A stretch of DNA of 64,000 nucleotides from NCBI GenBank assembly GCA_016183775.1, contig JACPDY010000047.1, forward strand, positions 1-64,000. The letters are read 5' to 3'. The position numbers were made by a program, and so were the translations under genes. A model generated the notes under the pieces. That model was not told the origin of the DNA, ran no database searches, and was given only the letters and a program-made list of their open reading frames with translations. Positions 8,783-60,472 of this stretch are shown here, piece by piece. Position 1 is the first letter of the stretch; each line of letters starts with the position of its first letter. Source of the stretch: Bacteroidota bacterium. Its GTDB lineage: Bacteria; Bacteroidota; Bacteroidia; JABDFU01.

Positions 8783-8848
8783 GTTGGTTGTTGGTTGTCA
8801 GTTGTTGGTTGTCGGGCAATAACCAACAACTGACAACCAGCAACTAAC
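8783..8848. repeat. Period-7 word folded into a 28-bp hairpin
   Basis: Left arm 8783-8810 and right arm 8821-8848 are reverse complements at 26 of 28 positions, with a 10-base loop. Each arm is made of heptads such as ttggttg, ttggttg, tcagttg. It lies between two minus-strand genes and could stop or protect the transcript of the upstream MFS gene. The tandem-word make-up is unlike an ordinary terminator, and no T-run follows. Confidence 0.8.
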
Positions 8849-25281: not shown

Positions 25282-26295
25282 TCAGTTTTTCAACACCAGT
25301 TGTTTCAGGGCCTCAATCCATTTAGGGTGGCTGTTCAGGCTTTCAACCAGCTGCAGCTTTTCACCGCCATGCTCACGGAATATTTCGTTGTACTCAACTC
25401 CTATCTCATAAATCGTTTCCAGGCAATCCGCCACAAAAGCGGGAGAGAACACGAGCATTCGTTTAATTCCCTGTTTTGCCTTTTCCTCAACCACTTTATC
25501 CGAATAGGGCTTCAGCCACTTATCATTAAGCCGCGATTGAAATGCAGTTGTGTACTTGTCCTGAGGAATATTCAACCGCTTTACCAATTGACGTGTTGTT
25601 TCGAAACATGCCGCCCTGTAACAATACTGATTATTTGCATTGACACTATCGCAACAACTTCCAAATGCACAGGTATTTGTACCAAAATATGCAGAATCCT
25701 TTATAATATGTCTTTCCGGCAAACCATGGTAGCTGAATAAAAAATGATCGTACTCATTTAAATTGTACTGTCCAGCAATGACCACCATTGAATCGATATA
25801 ACCCGGAACATCATAAAATTTACTGATGATCTTAACGGGGGGCGCGCCATCCCATTTGCGTAACACATCCTTCGTCTTATCAATGGATGACTCTGTACTG
25901 GATGAGGCATACTGGGGATATAAAGGAAGAACGATGATCTTTGAAACCTTTTGTTCACGTAAGTCAGCCAAAGCAGAATCAATGGATGGGCTCTGATAAC
26001 GCATACCCAATTCAACAATATAATTATCTCCTAACGCATCCTGCAATTTTTCTTTCACACTTTGTCCATGAATTAAAAGCGGAGACCCTTTTTCAGTCCA
26101 TATTTGCTGGTACAACTTCGCCGATTTTGAAGCACGAAAAGGAACAATGATCGCATTCACCAAAAAAAAGCGCGCAATGGGATTTATATCAATTACTCTC
26201 GGATCATTCAAAAATTCTGTGAGGTATTTCCGCACATCAGCTGTTGAAGGGCTGTCGGGGGTGCCGAGGTTAATTAGCAGGATTCCGGTTTTCAA
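25282..26295 (-). CDS. hemH: Ferrochelatase
   Basis: The 337-residue protein has LLINLGTPDSPSTADVRKYL at the N-terminus, PLYPQYASSST, the active-site FSYHGLPERH at about residue 188, and VFSPAFVADCLETIYEI near 275. It inserts Fe2+ into protoporphyrin IX. The Cys-rich segment TNTCAFGSCCDSVNANNQYCYRAACF resembles the Cys cluster seen in some bacterial ferrochelatases. The start codon is TTG (26293-26295), and no in-frame ATG lies upstream before a stop. The inverted-repeat cassette begins only 8 bases upstream, so the cassette may have replaced the original leader. Confidence 0.92.
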   Translation of the reverse strand: MKTGILLINLGTPDSPSTADVRKYLTEFLNDPRVIDINPIARFFLVNAIIVPFRASKSAKLYQQIWTEKGSPLLIHGQSVKEKLQDALGDNYIVELGMRYQSPSIDSALADLREQKVSKIIVLPLYPQYASSSTESSIDKTKDVLRKWDGAPPVKIISKFYDVPGYIDSMVVIAGQYNLNEYDHFLFSYHGLPERHIIKDSAYFGTNTCAFGSCCDSVNANNQYCYRAACFETTRQLVKRLNIPQDKYTTAFQSRLNDKWLKPYSDKVVEEKAKQGIKRMLVFSPAFVADCLETIYEIGVEYNEIFREHGGEKLQLVESLNSHPKWIEALKQLVLKN

Positions 26296-26303
26296 AAGGA
26301 AAA

Positions 26304-26780
26304 GTTATTGGGTTATTAAGTTATTGAGTTATTCAGGCTTAATTTAAAAAATTAGTTGCCATCTTTTGTTTTTTTAAGGTACGCTATATATCCGTTAAGA
26401 ATTTTAATACAATTAGCTATTTCTTTACGAAACTCATTCAAAAGTTCAATGGAAATATATTCTTCATCAAAAGCACAAATCAGGTGATCGATCGTTTCAT
26501 TTAAAGAAGCACGGGCAATTCGGCAAAATTGAATATTTTCCTGGTGATGAAACCTTCCGTAACCTTCAGCAATATTAGCTGTCGGCGAACGGGAAGAACG
26601 CAAAATCTGATCAGTAAGTTTGTATTTTTCTTCAGGCGGAAATGCTTTTGTCAGTTTAGAAATTTTAACTCTGATTTTCCTTGCTTCCTGCCAAGCGGCT
26701 AATTCTTCGAAACTATTAAAACTCATCACTTAAATCTATTTTTTAAATTAAGCCTGAATAACTTAATAACCTAATAACTC
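26304..26780. mobile_element. Inverted-repeat cassette enclosing a four-helix-bundle gene
   Basis: Left arm 26304-26352 and right arm 26739-26780 are inverted copies sharing an exact 25-base core (26328-26352 and 26739-26763) and extended by period-8 words GTTATTNN, four on the left and three on the right. The left arm touches the stop codon of the enclosed gene, and the right arm lies 9 bases before its ATG. The whole unit is about 477 bases between hemH and lpdA. The layout matches 23S rRNA intervening sequences, which carry an S23 ORF between inverted repeats, but here it is intergenic. Confidence 0.6.
26352..26729 (-). CDS. Four-helix-bundle protein (S23/IVP-Avd family)
   Basis: The 125-residue protein opens with FEELAAWQEARKIRVKISKLTKAFP, then YKLTDQILRSSRSPTANIAEGYGRF, FCRIARASLNETIDHLI and FRKEIANCIKILNGYIAYLKK. 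These are the conserved lines of the four-helix-bundle family first known from 23S rRNA intervening sequences (S23 protein) and related to Avd of diversity-generating retroelements. The family forms pentameric or similar bundles and is basic enough to bind nucleic acid. Its role outside rRNA is not established. No reverse transcriptase is present in the window. It is enclosed by inverted repeats, described separately. Confidence 0.88.
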   Translation of the reverse strand: MMSFNSFEELAAWQEARKIRVKISKLTKAFPPEEKYKLTDQILRSSRSPTANIAEGYGRFHHQENIQFCRIARASLNETIDHLICAFDEEYISIELLNEFRKEIANCIKILNGYIAYLKKTKDGN

Positions 26781-26785
26781 CCCTT

Positions 26786-28189
26786 CTACATATTCAATGC
26801 CCTTTTATCCGTTGCATCCAAACAGGCTTCTTTAAATGCTTCCGTATAAGTGGGATGCGCGTGGCTTATACGTGAAATATCTTCGGCAGAAGCACGGTAC
26901 TCCATTGCAACAACAGCTTCGGCGATCATATCAGCAGCGCGGGGACCGATCATGTGTACGCCAAGAATTTCGTCCGTTTCAGAATCGGCAAGTACTTTAA
27001 TAAATCCGTCTGTATCCATACTCGCACGCGCACGGCCGCTGGCCTTGAAAGGGTATGAACCTTGTTTGTATTTTTTTCCCTGCTCTTTTAATTGCTCTTC
27101 TGTAAAACCAACAGCTGCTACTTCAGGCCAGGTGTAAACCACGCCGGGAATTAAATTATAGTTAATGTGCGGCTTCTGTCCGGCCATTATTTCGGCAACA
27201 AATACACCTTCTTCTTCAGCCTTATGAGCAAGCATGGCACCTTTTACTACATCGCCTATTGCAAAGATGCCCGGCACATTGGTTTGCAAATGATCGTCCA
27301 CTTCCACCCTACCCTTGTTATCTACCTTTACTCCCGCCTTATCCAAACCAAGATTTTCGGTATAAGGTTTACGCCCGACAGAAACAAGACAGTAGTCCCC
27401 TTTCAATCCGACCTTCTCTCCCTTTTCATTATCAGCGGAAACAACAACCTCTTTCCCGTTATTAGCTGCTCCGGTTACTTTGTGCCTGAAGTAAAATTCA
27501 AAGCCTTCCTTTTTCAATACCTTCTGTAATTCCTTACCCAGTGCCTTATCCATGGTACCTATCAATGAATCCGTAAATTCAACGACAGAGATCTTTGCAC
27601 CCAGACGTGCATAAACAGAACCCAACTCCAGGCCAATAACACCGCCGCCAATAATTACCATGTGTTTAGGAACTTCGGTCAAATTGAGTACTTCTGTTGA
27701 AGTGATCACTCTTTTTTTATCAATAGTAATTCCCGGCAAAGAAGCCGGCTTGGAGCCGGTTGCAATAATGACTTTAGTTGTTTCTATCTGTTCTTTTGTT
27801 CCGTTTGCCTTAATTATCTCAATGATGCTTTTATTTACAAATGAACCATGTCCGTTATATACTGTGATCTTATTTTTTTTCATCAGGTAATTGATACCAT
27901 CAGTAGTGGCCTTTACAACTTCACCTTTACGCTTGATCATCTGTGCCAGGTTAACCTTAATATCCTTCATATCAATACCATGTGCAGTAAAGTTATGTGT
28001 TGCATTGTGGTAATGTTCAGAGGAATCAAGAAGGGCTTTTGAAGGGATACAGCCTACATTTAAGCAGGTACCGCCAAGTGTGGCATACCGTTCAACGATG
28101 GCCACTTTCATTCCCACTTGAGCGCAGCGAATCGCGGCAATATAGCCTCCGGGACCGGAACCAATAACGGTTACATCAAATTTGTCCAT
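26786..28189 (-). CDS. lpdA: Dihydrolipoyl dehydrogenase
   Basis: The 467-residue flavoprotein has an FAD-binding GSGPGGYIAAI at residues 10-20 and the redox-active disulfide GGTCLNVGCIPSKALL (C42 and C47). NAD-binding VIIGGGVIGLELGSVYARLG lies near 180, IFAIGDVVKGAMLAHKAEEEG follows, and the C-terminal SHAHPTYTEAFKEA holds the His-Glu pair. It is the E3 of 2-oxo acid dehydrogenase complexes. No E1 or E2 gene is near. The stop lies right at the edge of the inverted-repeat cassette, and lnt follows upstream on the same strand. Confidence 0.95.
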   Translation of the reverse strand: MDKFDVTVIGSGPGGYIAAIRCAQVGMKVAIVERYATLGGTCLNVGCIPSKALLDSSEHYHNATHNFTAHGIDMKDIKVNLAQMIKRKGEVVKATTDGINYLMKKNKITVYNGHGSFVNKSIIEIIKANGTKEQIETTKVIIATGSKPASLPGITIDKKRVITSTEVLNLTEVPKHMVIIGGGVIGLELGSVYARLGAKISVVEFTDSLIGTMDKALGKELQKVLKKEGFEFYFRHKVTGAANNGKEVVVSADNEKGEKVGLKGDYCLVSVGRKPYTENLGLDKAGVKVDNKGRVEVDDHLQTNVPGIFAIGDVVKGAMLAHKAEEEGVFVAEIMAGQKPHINYNLIPGVVYTWPEVAAVGFTEEQLKEQGKKYKQGSYPFKASGRARASMDTDGFIKVLADSETDEILGVHMIGPRAADMIAEAVVAMEYRASAEDISRISHAHPTYTEAFKEACLDATDKRALNM

Positions 28190-60327: not shown

Positions 60328-60398
60328 ATTATACACTAGAGTTTATATCGAATAACCTTTTTGTGGGTTTTAGTGTTTTTGTGCTTTAGTGGCAATTA

Positions 60399-60472
60399 GA
60401 ATTCCGAAGCCGGAAAACTTCCGACTTCCGGCTTCGGAATTCTGACCATTAAATACACCTGTGTCGAAATTT
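60399..60472. repeat. TTCCGRC-type hairpin with conserved tail, copy 2
   Basis: A perfect 17-base inverted repeat (60399-60415 with 60426-60442) has a 10-base loop that carries ttccgac. The tail ttaaatacacctgtgtcg begins at 60449 and matches the tail at 58761. It lies between a terminator and the recX end. Confidence 0.75.

Follow-up and report, generated by a model that had tools for sequence, protein, structure and literature searches.

An S23 gene framed by short-period inverted arms between hemH and lpdA of a Bacteroidota genome suggests a probable, largely overlooked family of minimal mobile elements

In the 64,000 nucleotides of a Bacteroidota genome that were analysed for the current report (the window), a gene of the S23 family lies inside inverted arms made of tandem copies of the word GTTATTNN. 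Together with gene-less hairpins built from words of S23 cassettes and dispersed through the same genome, this cassette suggests that a family of very small mobile elements has gone largely unnoticed. The best reading of the proposed element is an S23 gene enclosed in inverted arms of a tandem 7- or 8-bp word and placed in the gap between the stop codon of one co-transcribed gene and the start codon of the next. We would give an even chance to the fuller interpretation, by which the locus is a copy of a minimal mobile-element family that S23 and host enzymes might spread, with the gene-less hairpins as its putative non-autonomous members. The initial annotation had likewise suspected a small element family with its own bundle protein, and the many S23 copies, gene-less hairpins and clear empty sites described below bear this out.

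The cassette (26304-26779, 476 bp) sits between two minus-strand genes, lpdA (26786-28189), the upstream gene of the operon, and hemH (25282-26295), its downstream gene, which was named by sequence and synteny. The S23 gene (PF05635, four-helix-bundle) is also on the minus strand (26352-26729) and starts either with GTG at 26729 or with ATG at 26726. The hemH-side arm (26304-26352) consists of four GTTATTNN words (26304-26333) followed by CAGGCTTAATTTAAAAAAT up to the S23 stop codon, and the lpdA-side arm (26738-26779) contains three such words and mirrors it, the two pairing as 26312-26352 with 26738-26778 (41 nt, 95% complementary, spacing 385 nt). The S23-like gene in an inverted-repeat cassette at an intergenic site, as first annotated from the letters, is confirmed by these arms and by profile scores of 112.5 bits for PF05635 and 111.7 bits for TIGR02436, where the curated cut-offs are 33.8 and 24 bits. 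Its finer geometry required small corrections: the longest exact run common to both arms, AGTTATTCAGGCTTAATTTAAAAAAT, is 26 nt rather than 25 nt; the hemH-side arm does meet the gene at its stop codon, but the lpdA-side arm stops 8 nt short of the GTG start codon and 11 nt short of the ATG; and the cassette leaves free just 8 nt before the start of hemH and 6 nt after the stop of lpdA.

A profile search of the cassette protein returned PF05635 only. Its AlphaFold model is a four-helix bundle (pLDDT 92) whose nearest structures are 2GSC (TM 0.85) and 2RLD, followed by Avd (4DWL and 8UBE, TM about 0.75), so that the protein, as modelled, has the Avd fold. Between this genome (G000) and its congener G002 the dN/dS of S23 is 0.046, similarly low to the 0.057 of hemH, which on sequence comparison indicates strong purifying selection on the S23 protein amid turnover of its arms. 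No Rfam family matched positions 26200-26900 above threshold, and PADLOC found no defence-gene match in the cassette, by which a defence gene reading of S23 was rejected.

Eight further S23 genes occur in this genome, and each of the nine is framed by inverted short-period arms and shares its orientation with the genes on both sides. The nine loci have nine words (GTTTCAAG, GTTATTNN, GTTGGCA, GTAATCGG, GTTGTTA, AATGAAAAATTAAG, GTCATTG, GGGACGA and AAGGCAGAAG), which are 7 or 8 bp long with one case of 15 bp. This modifies the initial interpretation: the word itself is not fixed and differs with each S23 copy. When flanks were scored, seven of the nine genes ranked above about 99% of 156 other ORFs; the two lower-scoring ones have a coding end that extends into the arm, and the high-scoring control ORFs are of a different type, so that short-period inverted framing is practically limited to S23 genes. 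One tRNA nucleotidyltransferase-like gene (L411, 5659-7077) is enclosed by inverted repeats of about 60 nt that are not short-period. At three S23 loci (L021, L024 and L025) some C-terminal S23 codons lie in the 3' arm, where arm turnover alters the protein tail.

The junction between lpdA and hemH is open to comparison in relatives, since the two genes are neighbours in many genomes of the class. In the congener G001 they overlap and the cassette is absent, and eight additional genomes have a short lpdA-hemH gap with no cassette, that is, an empty site. The congener G002 has the same cassette at the same place (S23 93.6% identical, hemH 93.8%), which was therefore inherited since its common ancestor with the present genome. 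The copy in G002 has kept the hemH-side arm and not the lpdA-side arm; in the present genome, the lpdA-side arm is a mirror image of the opposite arm right up to the S23 gene, which looks like arm-to-arm correction. At this very junction G057, a member of another family, carries a GTTATT hairpin with no gene, evidently of independent origin and missing from its own congener G013. The search of the genome and its relatives that had been recommended at the outset thus recovered empty sites as well as further copies of both the arm sequences and the S23 genes, rather than relatives that are all filled, with decayed arms and no copies elsewhere.

Dozens of gene-less hairpins in this genome are built from the words of its S23 cassettes, and they outnumber the S23 copies. 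Searches and sampled stretches of the genome gave 8 gene-less sites for GTTATT, at least 13 for GTTTCAAG and about 7 each for GTTGTTA and GGGACGA; the remaining words have a few, and two have none. Many of the hairpins occupy stop-start junctions, for example rpmJ-rpsM, rpsR-rplI, exbB-exbD and atpF-atpH (names from sequence), and several are present in both G000 and G002 and missing from G001, G004 or G005. The hairpin that G004 carries at exbB-exbD is built of another word than the one in G000. A GTTATT-type array amounts to about 50 units in the present genome (contig C39, 1380-1815) and about six in G002 (contig C327), a difference that, judged from these two sequences, is one of fast tandem growth or loss. 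The window itself contains a gene-less hairpin of the same element type at 8783-8848, whose GTTGTTGG/GTTGTCAG words resemble those in the arms of S23 cassette L025. Elsewhere in the window (60398-60443) a palindrome, AGAATTCCGAAGCCGGAAAACTTCCGACTTCCGGCTTCGGAATTCT, lies beside a CTTTAGTGGC-type word with a weak period of 7.

A detector of hairpins with period-7/8 arms found no gene-less hairpins when run on seven genomes lacking S23 (900 kb), whereas eight genomes rich in S23 (1,064 kb) yielded 23 (p = 7.5e-7, a value that overstates the certainty because the sampled genomes are phylogenetically non-independent), and its lag-10/11 control found 1 in each set. Within one family, G039 (S23-free) has 0 hairpins and G112 (14 S23 genes) has 12. 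The contrast leans mainly on G112 and G000, which supply 12 and 9 of the 23 hairpins, and this counts against the mobile reading, as do G147, where nine S23 genes go with no hairpin in 260 kb, and the two words of the present genome that lack a gene-less copy. The GTTATT pattern was seen in 7 of 149 genomes, each with at least 3 S23 genes, a number too small for a test.

The association reaches well beyond the present genome. We surveyed 80 S23 loci in a scan of named genomes, 62 S23 genes in genomes of the class and 30 loci from outside the Bacteroidota, the compared genomes being mostly draft assemblies. S23 genes are present in 122 of the 149 genomes of the class, with a maximum of 23 in one genome. 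The best lag was a period of 7 or 8, or its double, at 79 of 93 S23 loci as against 25 of 86 control flanks, and 5-mers are shared between the two arms of S23 loci far more than between mismatched loci. Arms are G-rich inward (83 of 93 by shared arm words, 89 of 96 by arms), and this polarity is identical on both strands and is thus not a transcription effect. Co-directional genes lie on both sides of 73 of 85 S23 loci and of 25 of 64 controls (simple ORF caller). Outside the Bacteroidota, 19 of 27 S23 loci scored above the 99% null, and the G-inward polarity was seen in 22 of the 27. Perfect heptamer arrays (e.g. GGGTGTA, GGGAGTA and GGGAACA) lie on each side of S23 genes of cyanobacterial plasmids; at one of the five plasmid loci, that of Nostoc HK-01, the arms are not clearly inverted. 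The proposed element family thus extends to several phyla. The sdhA-sdhB junction is a recurrent S23 site, occupied in Flavobacteriia, in the present genome, in its congener G003 and in an ignavibacterium. Several genomes carry clusters of two or three S23 cassettes of differing words inside a few kb (L301, L267, L255, L265 and L271), and on cyanobacterial plasmids S23 genes with heptamer arrays (L485 and L486) lie between the two ribonucleotide reductase subunit genes and between cas6 and cas4.

Word and protein are associated, although loosely. For pairs at different sites, S23 identity correlates with word similarity at r = 0.19 (largest permutation 0.075; r = 0.28 in an earlier set), and a strict rule of one word for each S23 lineage was rejected, since the association is significant but leaky. 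In a clear instance of the link, an S23 gene after gcvH in G000 (L024) and one after the EF-P gene in G002 (L102) are 86% identical and both have GTAATCGG at different sites; many other closely related S23 pairs carry unlike words, and within single genomes similar words were found for only 5 of 138 S23 pairs. With so leaky a linkage, S23 perhaps does not recognise the word in any way.

If the locus is indeed a copy of a mobile element, S23 (with the Avd fold and an expected pentameric ring) might bind single-stranded nucleic acid at the repeated words and, together with replication or repair enzymes of the host, help the hairpin to be copied to further intergenic positions. Arm length would then change by slippage in both directions, template switching from arm to arm would keep the arms mirror-like, and sense placement in operons would provide S23 with transcription while limiting the damage. 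No catalytic protein was identified. Classical IS elements and MITEs have a target-site duplication and a conserved terminal repeat; here no target-site duplication was identified, and none is obvious against the empty site in G001, although the flanks have diverged, and the terminal sequences differ among cassette copies. RAYT was rejected as the mover in that the RAYT copies of this genome bear unrelated palindromes.

Two rivals of the mobile reading are live. By the first, which we consider unlikely, S23 serves the host in operon control, binding an intercistronic mRNA hairpin, directing RNase III-like processing and tuning the expression of the neighbours. The sense placement amid co-directional genes, the purifying selection on S23, the long retention of the sdhA-sdhB site in Flavobacteriia and the cutting of rRNA intervening sequences by RNase III (PMC4990558) would all suit this, as would the folding of the predicted S23 transcript, in which the arms pair (z = -4.4 relative to shuffles). 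The long stem foreseen in the initial annotation would accordingly form, but selection for an RNA stem is unsupported and was rejected: mismatches in the arms comprise 144 G.U and 141 A.C, with no excess of G.U, so that a process at the DNA level fits better. Further arguments against operon control are that the polarity does not depend on the strand, that close relatives differ in words and sites and that congeners lack the sites.

By the second, which is also unlikely and somewhat more so, S23 is a passenger: slippage during replication, template switching or some other enzyme would give rise to the hairpins and spread them, and an S23 gene would now and then have been caught in one. Consistent with this are the excess of gene-less hairpins over S23 copies, the switching of words between related S23 genes and the case of G147, which has nine S23 genes and 0 hairpins detected in 260 kb. 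A passenger would hardly be expected to be practically the only gene so framed, and in several phyla, or to be strongly selected, and the S23-free genomes gave no hairpins.

It is improbable that the cassette is a retro-element in which a reverse transcriptase copies the hairpin RNA, possibly after RNA insertion between cistrons, with S23 as its Avd-like partner. The Avd fold of the model, the resemblance of PF05635 to Avd (PMC10053308) and the sense placement in transcribed operons might be cited for it, but the arm mismatches have no RNA-strand signature and this 97.7%-complete genome yielded no bacterial reverse transcriptase, its sole RVT_1 match being a eukaryote-like LINE ORF on contig C130. 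That 3.4-kb contig (L114), whose ORF combines a LINE-like endonuclease with reverse transcriptase, is probably eukaryotic contamination of the assembly, and a reverse transcriptase of the genome's own was rejected as the mover. A chance likeness between low-complexity stretches, or a relic in decay, which the A+T-rich, short-period arms might suggest, is scarcely credible in view of the GTTATTNN doublets (5 in the window, every one at the cassette, where 0.02 are expected), the 5-mer sharing far above mismatched loci, the empty sites and the same design in other phyla.

Comparison with known systems places the cassette outside each of them. S23 ORFs are known from 23S rRNA intervening sequences of Leptospira and of Coxiella. 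One such sequence is 428 nt long, and they are cleaved by RNase III; a Xanthomonas S23 protein has been described as a pentameric ring (PMC4990558). The cassette resembles these sequences in size (476 bp), in its S23-family ORF enclosed by a stem of complementary ends, a design noted in the initial annotation, and in its sense placement in a transcribed unit, and it differs in its location between protein genes, outside any 23S rRNA gene, in arms of tandem 7/8-bp words that vary with the copy, and in its many copies per genome and gene-less hairpins. With diversity-generating retroelements it shares the four-helix fold of Avd, but no reverse transcriptase, template repeat or variable repeat adjoins it. 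Heptanucleotide repeats have long been known in cyanobacteria. Tandem 7-bp intergenic repeats have also been described in Xanthomonas (GGGAATC, 70 and 75 convergent pairs in two genomes; PMC4692102) and in Beggiatoaceae (TAACTGA; PMC4679880), and neither of these reports contains an S23 term that would link the repeats to S23 genes; here such words frame S23 genes, those of cyanobacterial plasmids included.

A broader proposal, which we offer tentatively as less probable than not, is that S23 is the core of a cross-phylum mobile class whose members repeat an arbitrary 7-8-nt word to build the inverted repeats at their own ends, with word length and G-inward polarity fixed and the sequence free. 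Cyanobacterial (perhaps also Xanthomonas) heptamers would then be traces left by this class, and rRNA intervening sequences a special case of where it lands. We know of no function for S23 genes, and the open-access literature yielded no earlier description of S23 genes with short-period arms. The tie between S23 and hairpins joins the separate puzzles of rRNA intervening sequences, orphan S23 genes and cyanobacterial heptamers, and a mobile element with arbitrary 7-8-bp ends, if true, would be at odds with sequence-specific transposition.

The hallmarks of a REPtron are a Y1 (TnpA_REP) transposase and a GTAG at the foot of the repeat. Its RAYT (Y1 transposase) gene is accompanied by flanking REPs and dispersed REPINs (e.g. 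PMC3116915), and the cassette is similar in that inverted repeats frame a gene and recur as dispersed gene-less hairpins of fixed polarity. The protein of the cassette is an Avd-fold bundle (PF05635) and not a Y1 transposase, and its arms are short-period words in neither of which a GTAG tetranucleotide was found when the sequence was read directly. Since both the Y1 transposase and GTAG are absent and the location is not in rRNA, we class the protein with S23 and place the element outside the REPtrons and the intervening sequences. The genome does contain, away from the cassette, eight Y1_Tnp (RAYT-like) genes (L106-L111), several of which lie beside REP-like palindromes of other sequence, so that a second hairpin system coexists with the S23 cassettes.
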